Made by a program: the position numbers and the translations under genes. A DNA stretch of 64,000 bases from Gammaproteobacteria bacterium (lineage in GTDB: Bacteria > Pseudomonadota > Gammaproteobacteria > SZUA-140): NCBI GenBank assembly GCA_021648525.1, contig JAKISP010000013.1, positions 1 to 64,000 on the forward strand. Reading direction: 5' to 3'. Positions 3,780 to 10,873 of this stretch are shown piece by piece. The notes under the pieces are model-generated. The model was given only the letters and a program-made list of their open reading frames with translations. It was not told where the DNA came from and searched no databases. Numbering within the stretch: position 1 is the stretch's first letter; the number at the start of each line of letters is the position of its first letter.

Positions 3780-4811
3780 CTACGTTCTTTGATCTTTATC
3801 CGATGGAATCACTTTCTGTTGCTGCTCCAGCAGTTTGTCAAAGTCAGACTTAAAAAGCCTATCTTGAATAATGCGGTATTTTTCAAACTCACTTTCAGCA
3901 AAGTCTTTGGCTATTTTAGCCGTGATTTTCCCTGCATCTTGCAATATTTCACGCTCATCAAACTCAAGAAACAGATCAAGTCGTTTAGCCCAATCCTCCA
4001 TCGTCATCGGAATTTTTCGCTTAGCTCGCTCCTCTGCAAGATCAAGATAGGCGTTGACAATTCTACCCAGGGATTCAAGTTCATCTTTATTCAGGTAGTT
4101 TTTGGCAATACTCACATCAGTTTTGATGATCTTACCGTCGGGTGCATTACCCCAGGATGTCAGCCCCATATGTGTTTTATCACTATCAGCGCGTTGCATA
4201 ATCAGCTCAGCCGCGGTATGGCCATGTATGCCAAAATGAAGTTTGTTCTGAACCCTGGCAAAGAAACTTTGGGTCGCTTCAGTATCTTTGTTGTAATCCA
4301 GACTGGTGGCGTAAATATCGGTGATTTTTTGATAGAAACGCCGCTCGCTAAGCCTGATTTCACGGATTTCAGCCAGCAATCTTTCAAAATAGTCTTCACC
4401 TAAAAAAGCACCATTTTCAAGGCGTTTGTTATCCAATACATAGCCTTTGATTGCAAACTCGCGCAACACCTGGGTTGCCCACTGGCGGAATTGAGTGGCA
4501 CGTTTGGAGTTAACGCGGTAGCCGACGGAGATTATAGCATCCAAATTATAAAATTTAGTCTGGTAACTTTTCCCATCACCGCCAGTGTGTCGGAATTCCC
4601 GACACACTGAATCCTCAACCAACTCAAGCTCGTTAAAAATATTGCGTAGATGTTCGGTTATGGTACTACGACCTCTACCAAACAGCTCTGCAATCAATTT
4701 CTGAGTCAACCAAACCGTTTCATCTTCAACCCTAACTTCAATGCTCTCTTCGCCAGCCTTAGAGGTGAAAATCAAGAACTCAGCGGTGGAATTACGGATG
4801 AGTTTTTTCAT
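3780..4811 (-). CDS. RhuM-family protein inserted within the cas operon
   Basis: A 343-residue protein of the RhuM (virulence_RhuM) family. The N-terminal part contains a helix-turn-helix-like segment (VWLTQKLIAELFGRGRSTITEHL) and the family core ISVGYRVNSKRATQFRQWA; a charged C-terminal half follows. RhuM was named from a Salmonella pathogenicity island. Homologues are common in genomic islands and near restriction or toxin genes, but their biochemical role is not established. Here it is full length, co-directional, 80 bp after cas7c and 3 bp before cas4, so it is transcribed as part of the cas operon and splits effector genes from adaptation genes. Whether it takes part in CRISPR function or is a passenger is unknown. 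Confidence 0.85.
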   Translation of the reverse strand: MKKLIRNSTAEFLIFTSKAGEESIEVRVEDETVWLTQKLIAELFGRGRSTITEHLRNIFNELELVEDSVCREFRHTGGDGKSYQTKFYNLDAIISVGYRVNSKRATQFRQWATQVLREFAIKGYVLDNKRLENGAFLGEDYFERLLAEIREIRLSERRFYQKITDIYATSLDYNKDTEATQSFFARVQNKLHFGIHGHTAAELIMQRADSDKTHMGLTSWGNAPDGKIIKTDVSIAKNYLNKDELESLGRIVNAYLDLAEERAKRKIPMTMEDWAKRLDLFLEFDEREILQDAGKITAKIAKDFAESEFEKYRIIQDRLFKSDFDKLLEQQQKVIPSDKDQRT

Positions 4812-4891: not shown

Positions 4892-5773
4892 TTACACTAT
4901 TTCTCGCACTTCCACGCCATTATTTTCAAGCGCCTCTTTATTAATTTCTATTTTATAATCATTAAAGCCACTTGCAGGCGTGCCCTCTTCGCCTTTAACG
5001 CGCATTACGGTTACACGCTCAAATAACTTATGTGAAGCCATATTACCTAGCACATCATTATGTTTGAATACGATTAACTTACGAACAACCATTTCTCCGC
5101 GCGCCGCTGAATGGTCATGCTCAAACATCATTTCTAGCGCTTGCCAAAGTTTTTCAAGGTCACTATCTGAAAACCCAGTTTTCTCAGCAAGTTTTGCGGA
5201 AATAAAACCATGCACGCGATACAAACCATAGGGTACGATATGCTTTCTGCCCATAGTACGGTTATCACCTTGCTGTTCTTCTGCTTCTTTTTCGGTTGTT
5301 ACTGCCATTCGAGTAATCGATATTTCTAAAGGTATTATCGGGTCTATAGATTTAGCAAAAGCTAGCTGGACAGGGCCACGCACCTGACCACTATTTATAG
5401 CTGTTGTCATCACTGCGCCGAATGTACGAACATCGAAGAAGTTAGCACACATCCAATCTGTTATAGCACGAGCTTTCTCGACTTCTTTTGGTAGTTTTTT
5501 ATCTATTGGCTTGATATCTAACGCATCATAGGCTTTTCTATTTTGGTTATTTAACACCGATTTTTCTTTGACATAAATATCATAACCCTGAGCATCTGCT
5601 TCGGTCAGTTCAATGAAATTTCGAATTTTACGCTTTAAACAAACATCAGTGACCAAACCTTTACTTGATTCTGGATCTAGCCGAGGCATGTTACCCGCGT
5701 CAGGATCACCGTTCGGGTTTCCGTTAGTGACATCAAATAGGTAAACAAATTCATAGCGGTTTTGGATCGTCAT
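4892..5773 (-). CDS. cas7: Type I-C Cascade backbone subunit Cas7c (Csd2)
   Basis: A 293-residue protein starting [33 protein letters not shown]; the [11 protein letters not shown] stretch is the Csd2/Csh2 signature. Other family segments are RTFGAVM and [14 protein letters not shown]. Several Cas7 copies wrap the crRNA, and it is Cas7 contacts that flip out every sixth guide base, which matters for the self-target match described nearby. It starts 18 bp after the cas8c stop. Length and motifs look intact. Confidence 0.95.
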
Positions 5774-5791: not shown

Positions 5792-7600
5792 CTAATTAGT
5801 TTTGGTGTTTTTTTGTTCTGAGGCAGAAGCACCTGATGAAAAATATTTTTCACGCTGATGGTAATACCCAATGCTGAATCGCCCTTGATCCTCTATCGAA
5901 AAATGCTTATTGAATTCAGGCGGCAACTTAGCAATAATTTTGGTAATGTCTTTATCAAGATTAACCGCATATCCAGGCATGTTTTTTCTTATTTTAGACA
6001 AGTGATTTTTACTTCCCGCAAGCAATCGTGGAAATACTGAATACGGTACGGTCGATGCGGTACCAAAGTAACGATCAGTGATCGTTGCATTAGCCCCTTT
6101 AATTGCGCTGGACTGAATACGCTCCAACACTGCAAAAAGCCTACCTGTATGGTAGGCGTTACTCTCATAGCTTTCATCCAAACCCATAGGAACTCCCTCC
6201 TTATTTAGTTTTCTGAAATTTCGCTGTAACACGGCCTTGATCATGGCGATACGCAGTGAGCTAATATGCCCATCCGTTCGAAGTCGTAAAACCAGTTGTG
6301 CTAATAATGAATGGGGGTAGCGGTCTCCCGTTAAAATAGAGCGCATCATTTCACCCGCCAAATGCGGTGGAATGTCTTTGGCATTTGATTTCTGCCCTGC
6401 ACGATGTGGCACAAGCTCGATCAATAGACGGAATATTGAAGGCGACTTATTCCACGCAGGTGGTTCAAGTGATAGATCGGTAAAATGCTCCGCCATATGC
6501 TGTGCCAATTCGCCAAAACTAGTATCTAGCCAATAACGAATGGAGAGGCGCGCCGCATTCGGAGCCAAACCGAGCAAATAAAATCGCGTCGAGGGATCAA
6601 TTTCTGGTGCAATCTCTTTTAGTGGCTGGCCTTGTGATATTTTTTCAACCCAAGGATTAAGCTTTACCGCTTCACTATCATCACTCGGATTAACGACCTG
6701 CATAAAAAGCTGTTCTGCTTTTTCTGTTTTCCCACCATCTGCCGCGACAGCCCAGAATACAGTGCTGGCATCGCCCACCGACAAACAGTGCTTGTTGTCA
6801 CGGTTAAGTAAATAATTAAGTACGGTGGTGTATTTAAAAGCGGCAAGTTCCGAAACGGGTGCATTTTCACCTTGCGATTTACCATATGATTCGTATGATT
6901 CCGCGTTAAAAGAGACAATAGAGCCACCCGAGCTTTGCCCACCAAATACACCTTTAATGGATGGATGTAAGCGTGCTATTTTCTCTTGCTTGCCAGTCAC
7001 TAAACAGTGGCTTTTTGCTACTTCTGTAGAGCTTTCAAGTAGTAACGCCCATTGTTTTTTAATAGCTTCCCTTTCATGTAAATAACAATGATCACCATCG
7101 AGTTGAAAAACAAGGTTTGTATGCAACATATCATGATGACAGGGTGATTCATCAATATGCTCAAACTGCCATTGCTGTAGAAAATTCACCAATGCCGATA
7201 GGCCTTCATCATTACATGATTCAAGTACTTCAATATGTCGCTGTTTAAATGCATAAAATGTTTTTTCTGATTTAACCCAAGGTACCTCTTTACCTGCTTT
7301 TTTGTCTGGGTTGGCCTGAACACCTAATACATAAGCCGATTTGTCCCATAGAAAGTTAGGTTGTATTCCCGACGTACGCTTTTCTGGGCGAGGAACAGCC
7401 ATTTTCTTTGGCTGAATTTTTCTCCCTGAGCTATCCATATGATTAATGACATCAACCAATTTCCCTTCGGCTGAAATCACAAGAACATAGCCAATTTTCT
7501 CTTCACTGAAACCAAAACCAGGAACTCTCAATCTGCCTGTATCTGGATCAGGTTCTGAGACCAGGCGGTCATAATATTGATTCAGTGCCGTGAGTATCAT
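5792..7600 (-). CDS. cas8c: Type I-C Cascade large subunit Cas8c (Csd1)
   Basis: A 602-residue Csd1-family protein: N-terminus MILTALNQYYDRLVSEPD, with LPHLAG-like and SLLAQLVLRLRTD segments and a C-terminal region containing YRF-type residues. Cas8c recognises the PAM (TTC in studied I-C systems), and an internal start of cas8c is known to yield a Cas11c small subunit; I cannot fix that start from sequence alone. Its ATG overlaps the cas5c stop by 4 bp. The ORF is intact, so a PAM-reading Cascade can be expected. Confidence 0.93.
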   Translation of the reverse strand: MILTALNQYYDRLVSEPDPDTGRLRVPGFGFSEEKIGYVLVISAEGKLVDVINHMDSSGRKIQPKKMAVPRPEKRTSGIQPNFLWDKSAYVLGVQANPDKKAGKEVPWVKSEKTFYAFKQRHIEVLESCNDEGLSALVNFLQQWQFEHIDESPCHHDMLHTNLVFQLDGDHCYLHEREAIKKQWALLLESSTEVAKSHCLVTGKQEKIARLHPSIKGVFGGQSSGGSIVSFNAESYESYGKSQGENAPVSELAAFKYTTVLNYLLNRDNKHCLSVGDASTVFWAVAADGGKTEKAEQLFMQVVNPSDDSEAVKLNPWVEKISQGQPLKEIAPEIDPSTRFYLLGLAPNAARLSIRYWLDTSFGELAQHMAEHFTDLSLEPPAWNKSPSIFRLLIELVPHRAGQKSNAKDIPPHLAGEMMRSILTGDRYPHSLLAQLVLRLRTDGHISSLRIAMIKAVLQRNFRKLNKEGVPMGLDESYESNAYHTGRLFAVLERIQSSAIKGANATITDRYFGTASTVPYSVFPRLLAGSKNHLSKIRKNMPGYAVNLDKDITKIIAKLPPEFNKHFSIEDQGRFSIGYYHQREKYFSSGASASEQKNTKTN

Positions 7601-8271
7601 GCGCTGACCTCCGAAGAATCAAATGGAGGCACGTCGATTACGCCACCTTTCATGACCGCTCTAAAAAAATGCGGTGTATTTTCATTGGCAAAGTCGATGT
7701 CGTGCAACATCCAGCCGAAATCTCTATCTTTTTCTAAAAGATTCGATGCGGGTAGAACATCATTTTCAAGCAAGCTAAATTCAACAGGAAATTCACGTGT
7801 ACCAAAATAAGGATGATGGAAACATTGGCCTTTTCTAGCGCGACGATTAAAGATGTCTAAATGTTTTCCTTCGTTATCATCCTCACCACCTTTGCCCGTT
7901 AAAACAAAGTGTGCTTCGATGATGTAACTCACTTTTCGTAAGATAGTTGCGGCACGTTGTTGTCGCTCTTTTCCATCATCGGCCAGCATATACAAATTCT
8001 CGGTCGAGCCTTTTCTCATCGCACTCGTGACATTGCGAGTGGAAATCTTGCTAGCCACTTCATTACGCCGAATGGATTCAAAACGAATCGGTTCTAATAC
8101 ATGAATTTTATCAATAACCCATTGAATAGCCGGTTTCCAATGGATCGCTTCAAGAATGCCACGCGCCGCTGATGGCGTGATGACATCATAGGAGACCCTT
8201 TCCACTTTCATTTCAGGCCGAGTAAAACAGGCATTTTCTCCTTTAATATGGAGTTTTATTCCGTAGGCCAT
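7597..8271 (-). CDS. cas5: Cas5c (Cas5d), crRNA-processing ribonuclease of type I-C
   Basis: A 224-residue protein with the Cas5d hallmarks RPEMKVERVSYDVITPSAAR near the N-terminus, EPIRFESIRRNEV in the middle and FNRRARKGQCFHHPYFG in the catalytic region. In I-C systems Cas5c replaces Cas6: it cuts at the 3' base of the repeat stem and keeps the 11-nt 5' handle. The start is fixed by a strong GGAGG 5 bp upstream of the ATG at 8271. The last repeat of the mini-array ends only about 7 bp before that ribosome-binding site, so the enzyme's own cutting site lies in its 5' untranslated region. Confidence 0.95.
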   Translation of the reverse strand: MAYGIKLHIKGENACFTRPEMKVERVSYDVITPSAARGILEAIHWKPAIQWVIDKIHVLEPIRFESIRRNEVASKISTRNVTSAMRKGSTENLYMLADDGKERQQRAATILRKVSYIIEAHFVLTGKGGEDDNEGKHLDIFNRRARKGQCFHHPYFGTREFPVEFSLLENDVLPASNLLEKDRDFGWMLHDIDFANENTPHFFRAVMKGGVIDVPPFDSSEVSA

Positions 8272-8289
8272 GCATACCTCCTTTGCAAA

Positions 8290-8321
8290 TTATTAATCCA
8301 CGCGCCCGCAATGGGCGCGAC
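8290..8321 (-). repeat. CRISPR repeat 2 of the mini-array
   Basis: A 32-nt unit on the minus strand starting GTCGCGCCC with the perfect 7-bp stem CGCGCCC/GGGCGCG and ending TGGATTAATAA. It differs from a standard I-C repeat mainly in the last five bases (AATAA in place of GAAAC). Those bases belong to the handle of a following crRNA, which this last repeat does not need, so their decay fits a terminal repeat. Confidence 0.85.
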
Positions 8322-8349
8322 TTATGCATATGAACATTACTAACTGACA

Positions 8350-8378
8350 GTTTCTACCCACACACCCAGAAGTGCGAC
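8350..8378 (-). repeat. Degenerate CRISPR repeat 1 of the mini-array (psi-repeat, provides the 5' handle)
   Basis: A 29-nt unit on the minus strand: GTCGCAC, a loop, GTGTG, then TGGGTAGAAAC. The last 11 bases match the usual I-C handle TGGATTGAAAC at 9 of 11 positions, and CGCAC can pair with GTGTG (one G-U). It is three bases shorter than repeat 2, the kind of decay expected when only processing and loading need to be kept. Confidence 0.75.
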
Positions 8379-8383
8379 TTTTT

Positions 8384-8539
8384 CTAAAGAGACAAATAAG
8401 ATAAGAAAGCCCCAAAAGAAGCCACCATTGTAATGGTATAAGCCACATGTCTAGCCGAAAGATTGAAACGCCCCCAAAACACCAAGGACACTTTACCTTT
8501 ATCATTCCGCTCAACTTGAACACCCAAAACCTCTCGCAT
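8384..8539 (-). CDS. 51-residue ORF with hydrophobic C-terminus; candidate CreT-type toxin
   Basis: The start is set by a Shine-Dalgarno GGGAGAG (8552-8546) six bases before the ATG at 8539; the in-frame ATG at 8584 lies upstream of the predicted transcription start and is not used in this model. The peptide begins MREVLGVQVERNDKGKVS, continues LVFWGRFNLSARHV and ends in a hydrophobic stretch (AYTITMVASFGAFLSYL) that could form one membrane helix. No homologue is recognised. It sits between the targeted promoter and the mini-array, where creT genes sit in CreTA modules. Small hydrophobic toxins would fit, but an RNA-level toxin or a plain leader ORF is also possible. Confidence 0.5.
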   Translation of the reverse strand: MREVLGVQVERNDKGKVSLVFWGRFNLSARHVAYTITMVASFGAFLSYLSL

Positions 8540-8570
8540 CAAAGACTCTCCCAATCTACTGTCAGGAGCA

Positions 8571-8598
8571 AGTATAGCTCGCATTAATCTTCTGTCAA
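8571..8598 (-). promoter_or_regulatory. Near-consensus sigma70 promoter upstream of creT-like ORF, mini-array and cas5c
   Basis: On the minus strand a perfect -35 TTGACA (8598-8593) is separated by 16 bp from a -10 TATACT (8576-8571). Transcription should start near 8564 and run into the 51-residue ORF, then the mini-array and cas5c-cas8c-cas7c. It lies just after the cas3 stop codon (8624-8626). The -35 box forms the first six bases of the guide-matched site, so Cascade bound there would block RNA polymerase. Confidence 0.75.
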
Positions 8599-8620
8599 TT
8601 AGTTATTTTAATATAATTTA
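8590..8620 (+). promoter_or_regulatory. Putative Cascade target: TTC PAM plus partial protospacer over the -35 box
   Basis: Bases 8590-8592 read TTC, the PAM of characterised I-C systems, followed directly by 8593-8620. Compared with the guide of the mini-array, positions 1-5, 7-11, 13-14, 16-17 and 19-22 are identical (blocks TGTCA, TTAGT, AT, TT, ATAT); mismatches are 6, 12, 15 and 18, and pairing is mostly lost after 22. Positions 6, 12 and 18 do not pair in type I effectors. A seed match with weak PAM-distal pairing should allow binding without Cas3 cleavage, as in CreA and CreR regulation. Confidence 0.78.
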
Positions 8621-8623
8621 ATA

Positions 8624-10873
8624 TTACATCACTGAAGAATTCGCATCGTTAAAATATGGATTATCCCAATTCAACCCGGCCTCTTCGCTATACAAGTCAC
8701 GACCAATTAACACCCAAAACTGGTCACCAAACCGCTCAGGCTGTATGACAGAAACAACCCCTGCCGTTTTTAGCGCAATAAAGGCTCGCTCAGGTATTTG
8801 AACAATGTATTGCTGTAATTTACGCGCAAGCCCACCAACAAACTCAGCGTGATAAAGGCCCTCAATCAATTTTTCAGCCTCTTTGTCGTAGGCAATAATG
8901 ACAGGCTGCATATAGCTTTCAATGATGCGATATTCACTGGCGATGGTTTGAAAGGGGAATGTGAAATCTGCGCAGTGGTCTCGGTGGGTTTTCAATAACC
9001 TTTTTGTATCAAGCCCACCATCTTGATCTTTTCGCCAATAGACATCTTTGAAATATGCCTTGATTGCTTCTGGTGACAGTAAGTCCCCCTCGTGGTTACG
9101 CATGACGTAACGGAGGCTGGCGGCATATTGATCTAGCTCGGGGGGAGCTTTCCATTCTGGAGACGTGAAGATCAAAACCTCACTCTCTTCTTTTGATTTG
9201 CGTCCCTCACGGTTACATCGCCCGGCTGCTTGCGCGACTGAGTCAAGCCCGGTCTCAGCCCGCATTACCATAGGGAAATCCACATCAACACCGGCTTCGA
9301 TTAAGGATGTTGAAATAACCTTGCAAAGAGCCCCATCGTTCAGGCGCTTTCGAATTTCATCCAACACTTTTCTGCGGTGCATGGCACACATTAATGTCGT
9401 CAGATGATAATGGCCTTCAGAAACCCCGATCAAATCAAACAGTGCGTGGGCATGCCTACGATTGTTAACGATGATAAGAATCTGATCATTGCGACCTATG
9501 GTTTCAGCTAATTGCTCATCTGTTTGTACGCCGATATGGCGTACGGTTACACGATCTAAATCGGTGTAGAGCTGAGAAATATCCGGCGCAATTTCTCTCA
9601 CTTTGATGAATCCATTCAGGAAATCATCCGAGTGTAACAACGCGGGTTGTGTTGCAGTGCATAGCACAATGGAACATTTATAATTTCTGGCCAACTCATC
9701 GATGGCCGCCATTGTTGGCCGTAGCAGCTTTAGGGGTAACATCTGAGCTTCGTCAAGAATAATGACGCTACCCGTAATATTGTGCAATTTACGGCATTTA
9801 GATGTTCGGTCAGCAAACAGCGATTCAAAAAACTGCACAGCAGTGGTGACAACAATGGGGAAATCCCAGTTTTCCATTGCCAGTTTGAGTTTGTCTTTTG
9901 TCTCCTCTCGCCCATCAAATTTTTTATCATCAAATGCACTGTGATGTTCCAGCACAATGTCGTCACCCAGCGTTTTAAACACGTCACGAAAAACCTTGGC
10001 ATTTTGCTCGATGATACTGGTAAAGGGGATGACGTAAATAATCCTGCGCTGCTGATGTGTTTTACTATGTGCAATCGCATGATCTAATGAAAAAGCCATC
10101 GAGGTTAATGTTTTTCCTCCACCAGTTGGCACGGTTAAGGAAAAAAGCCCCGGAGATAATAACGCCTGTTTTCTTGAATGATTTAGCACCTTTTGCCGAA
10201 GGTCATTCACGCTATTTGGTGAATTTTGGGCCGCCTTATTCTTTAATTCTTCAAGGTGATTATCAAGCGCATGTTGCAGTTTGCAAAGTGACGGATGATC
10301 GCCGCGACTCTTTTTTTTCCCCTTAAGTTTTTGATAAAACACTTCTGTATCAAGAAAGTCCGCATCAACCAAGCAGGAAAAAAGCATTCTGATCAAAAAA
10401 GCACACTGAAAACCTTGAAAATTTTCTGCCACCTTAAATGAAGGAAATGGTAGTTGATTTGGCAGTGCCATCTCTTTTCCCCATACTTCATCCAGTTCTG
10501 GAATAGCTTTTTGAAGTCGGTCATGCAAAGTTGATCGACCTTCTCCTGAGTCGATGCCGTTTGCCAGCCCGGCATGGTGTCCTGCAACAATATAACTAAT
10601 TATTTTTCCTAGCCGATCCCATTTTTCAAATGCTATTTTTGCCCCAGCTGTTGCGTGGTCTACTCGCTTTCCACCTTCAAGACGTGCTTGAAATTCACGG
10701 GTATATTTACCAAGATCGTGCAACCGTCCAGCAATATCAGCAAGATCTTCCGCATTAAAATAGCGGGCATTTTTAGCTGCAATGCTGCCTACTTGTTGCA
10801 AATGATCTGGCAATGTTTGCCAGTCAGACTTATCTGCCTCATTTCCTGAATGTGCGTAATAAACCCTGGTCAT
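8624..10873 (-). CDS. cas3: Cas3 HD nuclease-helicase (type I-C)
   Basis: A full-length 749-residue Cas3. The N-terminal HD domain has H52-D53 (RLHDLGK), H73 (VDHATAG) and H99-H100 (AGHHAG). The helicase has Walker A PTGGGKT (249-255), the DEAQ box (374-377) and motif VI QAAGRCNREGR. Cas3 unwinds and degrades DNA marked by Cascade. All catalytic residues are present, so a fully paired crRNA against the chromosome would be lethal; the weak PAM-distal pairing of the self-target fits that constraint. A ribosome-binding site AGGAAG precedes the ATG and overlaps the stop of a small upstream ORF. Confidence 0.97.
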   Translation of the reverse strand: MTRVYYAHSGNEADKSDWQTLPDHLQQVGSIAAKNARYFNAEDLADIAGRLHDLGKYTREFQARLEGGKRVDHATAGAKIAFEKWDRLGKIISYIVAGHHAGLANGIDSGEGRSTLHDRLQKAIPELDEVWGKEMALPNQLPFPSFKVAENFQGFQCAFLIRMLFSCLVDADFLDTEVFYQKLKGKKKSRGDHPSLCKLQHALDNHLEELKNKAAQNSPNSVNDLRQKVLNHSRKQALLSPGLFSLTVPTGGGKTLTSMAFSLDHAIAHSKTHQQRRIIYVIPFTSIIEQNAKVFRDVFKTLGDDIVLEHHSAFDDKKFDGREETKDKLKLAMENWDFPIVVTTAVQFFESLFADRTSKCRKLHNITGSVIILDEAQMLPLKLLRPTMAAIDELARNYKCSIVLCTATQPALLHSDDFLNGFIKVREIAPDISQLYTDLDRVTVRHIGVQTDEQLAETIGRNDQILIIVNNRRHAHALFDLIGVSEGHYHLTTLMCAMHRRKVLDEIRKRLNDGALCKVISTSLIEAGVDVDFPMVMRAETGLDSVAQAAGRCNREGRKSKEESEVLIFTSPEWKAPPELDQYAASLRYVMRNHEGDLLSPEAIKAYFKDVYWRKDQDGGLDTKRLLKTHRDHCADFTFPFQTIASEYRIIESYMQPVIIAYDKEAEKLIEGLYHAEFVGGLARKLQQYIVQIPERAFIALKTAGVVSVIQPERFGDQFWVLIGRDLYSEEAGLNWDNPYFNDANSSVM

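Follow-up and report, generated by a model that had tools for sequence, protein, structure and literature searches.

The 64,000-nucleotide (nt) stretch analysed here, called the window throughout, comprises positions 1 to 64,000 of contig JAKISP010000013.1 from a gammaproteobacterium of the SZUA-140 lineage and carries a type I-C CRISPR (clustered regularly interspaced short palindromic repeats) locus in which cas3, cas5c, cas8c, cas7c, cas4, cas1 and cas2 each match their own family. The cas operon lies on the minus strand, and our subject is the cas3-cas5c gap, which is 352 bp long. Read along the minus strand, cas3 is followed by a promoter, a 51-codon open reading frame (ORF) for a peptide with a single transmembrane segment, a degenerate repeat (psiR1), a 28-nt psi-spacer, a second degenerate repeat (psiR2) and cas5c. 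By this wiring, as far as sequence can tell, the module strongly matches the CreTA addiction modules, which pair a toxin gene, creT, with a CRISPR RNA (crRNA)-like RNA, creA. The features from cas3 to cas5c, with SD for Shine-Dalgarno sequence and PAM for protospacer-adjacent motif, are as follows.

8624-10873, minus strand: cas3 (Cas3c), bordering the gap upstream; family and PADLOC match
8593-8620, plus strand: protospacer-like target, matching the psi-spacer at positions 1-5, 7-11, 13-14 and 16-17; seed 10/10
8590-8592, plus strand: PAM, TTC, between the -35 and -10 boxes
8571-8598, minus strand: sigma70-type promoter, TTGACA (8598-8593), 16 nt, TATACT (8576-8571); 11/12 consensus positions
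8384-8539, minus strand: candidate creT, an ORF of 51 amino acids (aa), MREVLGVQVERNDKGKVSLVFWGRFNLSARHVAYTITMVASFGAFLSYLSL, with a GGAG SD 8 nt before the ATG
8350-8378, minus strand: psiR1, the 5' repeat of creA, GTCGCACTTCTGGGTGTGTGGGTAGAAAC; degenerate stem, handle GTGGGTAGAAAC
8322-8349, minus strand: psi-spacer, TGTCAGTTAGTAATGTTCATATGCATAA, 28 nt
8290-8321, minus strand: psiR2, the 3' repeat of creA, GTCGCGCCCATTGCGGGCGCGTGGATTAATAA; perfect 7-bp G/C stem, degenerate handle GATTAATAA
7597-8271, minus strand: cas5c, Pfam PF09704 (4.5e-50), PADLOC Cas5c; GGAGG SD at 8281-8277

An initial annotation, made from the sequence alone, had placed two I-C repeats at 8290-8321 and 8350-8378 and described both as foldable, and on both counts it was correct: psiR2 folds into a 7-bp G/C stem (-14.7 kcal/mol) and psiR1, weakly, into a 6-bp stem (-7.5 kcal/mol). 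Its division into a well-kept and a degenerate copy holds for the stems, perfect in psiR2 (8321-8290) and weak in psiR1 (8378-8350), but is reversed for the handles, of which psiR1 keeps 9 of the 11 usual positions and the more worn psiR2 keeps 8. Haloarchaeal creA has the same pattern, with the handle kept in psiR1 and the stem in psiR2 (PMC9458426). The repeat-spacer-repeat unit that the annotation described is thus real; neither the guide's target in the promoter nor the small ORF had been noticed. As CreTA requires, the unit is a crRNA-like gene that lies among the cas genes and has two degenerate repeats; a CRISPR array, by comparison, has identical repeats and a leader, whereas the psi-repeats are very unlike each other and unlike the I-C array repeat of this genome, GTCGTGCCTTCACGGGCGCGTGGATTGAAAC, which occurs in 36 copies on contig C16. 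Rfam was also consulted for a known structured RNA in 8200-8700, and its best hit was a spurious microRNA match (14 bits, against the 60 needed).

The psi-spacer begins TGTCAGTTAGTAATGTT, and the plus strand from 8590 reads TTC-TGTCAATTAGTTATTTT. By hand count, psi-spacer and target agree at 20 of 28 positions overall, with mismatches at positions 6 and 12, and the -35 hexamer coincides exactly with protospacer positions 1-6. TTC has been demonstrated as an I-C PAM in Xanthomonas (PMC8406640), so the arrangement is that of CreTA, a spacer-like part partly complementary to a nearby promoter beside the PAM of its own system. The combined PAM and seed pattern has one exact site in the genome, the gap's own; among 20,000 shuffled gaps a 10/10 seed behind TTC never arose, and among 20,000 shuffled spacers it arose with 3. 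A chance match of guide to promoter is rejected by this unique site, by the shuffles and by recurrence across loci, described below. The match to the promoter consensus, taken alone, is at chance level (1 found, 1.5 +/- 1.2 in shuffles); a related locus, L012, has TTGACA-16-TATACT in identical placement. No strong terminator was found between the promoter and cas5c, and a search inside the ORF for a separate creA promoter returned only TAGACA-15-TACAAT, a candidate too weak to claim.

Related loci came from a scan of 85,000 species genomes, which yielded 80 Cas5c relatives, and from three further searches, which added 46, some of them non-independent; a family-level search found three I-C loci among 20 genomes. 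Across these loci the cas3-cas5c gap falls into two size classes, short (mostly 7-75 nt) and long (mostly 250-390 nt). In a unified scan of both strands of 127 I-C loci, in which a guide qualified if at least 9 of 10 seed positions matched a site flanked by TTC or TTT, sets of handle, guide and target were present in 34 loci, the window included (47 handles tested), while scrambled handles gave none (0/36). Two of these, L105 and L127, resemble second copies of L012 and L040, leaving about 32 independent loci. We also ran a scan blind to the PAM, which took the best guide match anywhere in the gap for each of the 29 long-gap loci in which a handle could be recognised. In 28 of them this match reached at least 9/10, and the triplet preceding it was TTC in 25 and TTT in 2; in the remaining locus (L022) the TTC site scores 8. 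Over the 28 loci, positions 1-5 and 7-11 are matched about 98% on average, position 6 in 5 loci and position 12 in 4. Cascade structures have established that type I effector complexes flip bases 6 and 12 out of the crRNA-target duplex; mismatches with this period are thus a fingerprint of effector binding and not of mere sequence similarity.

Guide seeds vary between loci, each matching its own local target, and when guides were exchanged between loci only 33 of 722 combinations reached 9-10, even with no PAM required. The psiR1 handle is retained in essentially all module loci, and a hairpin follows it at 6-43 nt (mostly 23-43) in 32 of 33; covariation of the psiR1 stem, assessed by swapping arms, was modest (mean 5.5 versus 4.9 of 7 pairs), and we do not rely on it. 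L014, L016 and L037 have a target that extends into the end of cas3 or adjoins it. The guide gene of L118, and likewise that of L104, a locus from the same family as the window, is on the opposite strand and divergent from the cas operon. The suggestion of the initial annotation that the unit encodes a CreA- or CreR-type RNA in a I-C system gains support from this joint change of guide and promoter target in each locus. Comparison of related loci, which it had proposed as a check, revealed no random decay of the repeats, which keep the psiR1 handle and the psiR2 hairpin.

The first gene downstream of the targeted promoter is the candidate creT. Its predicted structure has a beta-hairpin at residues 4-24 and a hydrophobic C-terminal helix at 29-50 (predicted local distance difference test score, pLDDT, 72), and it has no family match in Pfam, NCBIfam or PADLOC. 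A membrane peptide of 42-58 aa follows the promoter region in 17 loci, the window included, with a basic, strand-like N-terminal half and a single hydrophobic C-terminal segment. In five close pairs of these peptides, the ratio of nonsynonymous to synonymous change (pN/pS) is 0.34, 0.30, 0.61, 0.49 and 0.31 (0.49 being the window against L012), a range of 0.30-0.61 that indicates purifying selection and points to creT acting as a protein. In L040, L042 and L066, for example, the stop codon of the ORF is a TGA within the psiR1 handle, so that peptide and guide overlap.

Other loci have other contents at this position. In a second class (L035, L041, L054, L078 and L086), an ORF of 9-11 codons stands behind a GGAGG-type SD with a structured leader, and four of the five mini-ORFs contain AGA or AGG codons; their target is a same-strand site that precedes the -35 box by about 40 nt. 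In sequence these mini-ORFs appear close to the known tRNA-sequestering CreT. In L088 the guide-targeted promoter precedes a gene for a DUF2188 protein, about 550-320 bases before cas5c; to our knowledge, this family is not known as a Cascade-repressed toxin. The target in L104 precedes an ORF for a 39-aa hydrophobic peptide unrelated in sequence to that of the window, and L112 and L115 have a guide, a target and a promoter-like region with no evident ORF. L039 and L064 keep guide, PAM, target and promoter with no ORF of useful length after the promoter, and may be pure regulators or carriers of an RNA toxin.

We consider it likely that the gap holds a CreTA-type addiction module of a type I-C system, with an RNA processed by Cas5c and a toxin that is a translated membrane peptide. 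The promoter at 8598-8571 would drive the 51-aa peptide and read on through the creA-like RNA into cas5c-cas8c-cas7c, effector genes that would then share it. Cas5c, in keeping with the role of Cas5 as the crRNA-processing enzyme of type I-C (PMC10651486, PMC8406640), would cleave this RNA at both psi-repeats, and I-C Cascade loaded with the guide would bind the TTC-flanked site covering the -35 box and block the promoter, the imperfect pairing permitting binding and repression without cleavage by Cas3. Intact Cascade would keep the peptide off; loss or titration of Cascade, or its inhibition by an anti-CRISPR, would lead to production of the peptide, presumably toxic by analogy with known CreT, and to harm to the cell. 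Such release on loss of Cascade would bind the cell to its CRISPR system. Since creT, creA and cas5c all lie downstream of the promoter in its own direction and no strong terminator was found, Cascade itself may be co-regulated; in Haloarcula hispanica, too, the creTA region bears a strong promoter for downstream cas genes (PMC9458426). A wider version, to which we give somewhat less than an even chance, is that in many I-C systems one promoter serves toxin, guide and Cascade, making the module both an addiction module and a cas autoregulator with an exchangeable toxin slot. In such a single circuit, loss of Cascade would raise toxin, guide and fresh Cascade together, and the slot would take membrane peptides, rare-codon mini-ORFs or DUF2188 proteins, while the logic of guide and promoter would stay constant.

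Several points weigh against the CreTA-type module proposed here. Its support comes from sequence; toxicity is presumed by analogy, and membrane insertion of the peptide is predicted from hydrophobicity and from a structure model of modest confidence (pLDDT 72). For a more distant pair, the window and L016, pN/pS is 1.08. The psi-spacer, at 28 nt, is shorter than the array spacers (about 32-35 nt, from the repeat period), the psiR1 stem of the window is weak, and no convincing separate promoter for creA was found.

The direction of the promoter would also suit an autoregulator of the CreR type and nothing more, in which the guide would set the level of Cascade and the membrane peptide would be a harmless or accessory gene of the operon. 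CreR is known in types I-B, I-E and V-A (PMC13131331), the promoter is oriented towards cas5c and no strong terminator was found in between, and the guide, target and promoter-like region of L112 and L115 lack an obvious ORF. We nevertheless think this explanation unlikely, given that 17 loci have the gene for the membrane peptide in first position after the promoter and conserve it as a protein, that at least four other loci begin with a mini-ORF with a strong SD and AGA or AGG codons, like known CreT, and that no locus with the peptide only was found.

Identical wiring would sense anti-CRISPRs, and CreA-controlled protein toxins have been described (PMC12737573). The module could then be a CrePA-like alarm in which an anti-CRISPR block of Cascade releases the protein and leads to abortive infection, guarding against loss being secondary. 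Known CreP proteins are reported to be typically KilA-N domain proteins, however, and the 51-aa peptide has no match in Pfam or NCBIfam, which makes this a rather improbable account. Guarding against loss and sensing anti-CRISPRs are inseparable by sequence, and both overlap with the CreTA reading. That the unit is what remains, without present function, of a CRISPR array that moved or decayed, as its degenerate repeats and the presence of the true array elsewhere might suggest, is almost certainly wrong, since the seed-promoter match with the correct PAM co-varies over many loci, handle and hairpin are conserved function-specifically, and coevolution of guide and target contradicts a decayed array.

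Gain and loss of the CreTA-type module can be followed among close relatives, in which L014 has it and L013 and L015 have none. Directly after cas3, L015 carries GATTGATAAGCAACTAGGGAGGG, a scar identical to the psiR2 end and cas5c leader of L014; toxin, target and guide seem to have been removed together, in a single event. No locus with the peptide and no guide was found among the related I-C loci, while a guide with no recognisable toxin occurs in L038, L039, L064, L112 and L115. The numbers are small, but this is the asymmetry that a toxin-antitoxin pair predicts. The gap itself seems to be a cargo site. In L050, L065, L070, L076 and L129 it contains a different small gene, which reads like a GIY-YIG-type gene, and repeats are absent. 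The short gaps of L028, L032, L107 and L085 contain a lone repeat-like hairpin with GTGGAT or GTGGGT, possibly a site of mRNA processing or the scar left when a module was lost.

Downstream of the gap, cas5c is expected to encode a Cascade subunit that is also the nuclease processing the CreA-like RNA, and the remaining Cascade genes follow on the same strand.

5792-7600, minus strand: cas8c (Csd1), Cascade large subunit; Pfam PF09709 (1.4e-186)
4892-5773, minus strand: cas7c, Cascade backbone; Pfam PF05107 (1e-108)

Within the operon, between cas7c and cas4, lies a RhuM-family gene (3780-4811; Pfam RhuM) that matches PDC-S05 (E 4e-158), a candidate defence group in PADLOC. A single further array-type repeat adjoins cas2, its 3' end at 1615-1630; this one true CRISPR repeat near cas2 (1600-1700) sits within an ORF that resembles the start of a phage-type integrase.

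If the CreTA reading is right, about one-quarter of the sampled I-C loci hold an internal gene under an RNA-guided lock, and in half of the locked loci proteins replace tRNA-sequestering RNAs. Deleting or transplanting I-C Cascade while leaving the gap in place could then free a toxin. The 34 naturally varied guide-target pairs also offer an in vivo readout of the crRNA positions needed for binding without cleavage.

Type I-C systems are common and lack cas6, and the founding CreTA toxins are RNAs (type VIII). CreTA has been published for types I-B (PMC8501985, PMC9458426), I-F (PMC10097628) and I-E (PMC12055562), and earlier creTA genes were stated to all surround cas6 (PMC10097628). No published I-C case was found in the literature searched, the coverage of which is incomplete, so priority is unproven. 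The I-B modules of Haloarcula hispanica and Halobacterium hubeiense likewise have a crRNA-like RNA with divergent degenerate repeats within the cas locus, a PAM-flanked partial promoter match with an 11-nt seed, and the 5' handle kept in psiR1 and the Cas6 or hairpin part in psiR2 (PMC8501985, PMC9458426). They differ in that Cas5c, not Cas6, would process the RNA here, and in that a conserved gene for a 51-aa membrane peptide takes the place of their tRNA-sequestering mini-ORF RNA. The I-E module of Citrobacter rodentium also lies between cas3 and the Cascade operon, with a small ORF, a strong promoter and a PAM-flanked partial match overlapping promoter elements; its ORF between cas3 and casA was shown to be toxic, and translation was required (PMC12055562). 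That ORF is 96 bp long and has no known relatives, and creA lies on the opposite strand in I-E but is co-directional with toxin and cas genes in the window, the divergent form occurring within type I-C in L104 and L118. The I-F module of Acinetobacter lies in a cas3-csy1 gap absent in most relatives and has two psi-repeats with kept hairpins and a PAM-flanked target (PMC10097628). With CreR of types I-B, I-E and V-A, the module shares a guide RNA that partly matches a promoter, here one that may also drive cas genes; CreR is generally uncoupled from a toxin gene, whereas the promoter in the window is followed directly by a conserved peptide gene.
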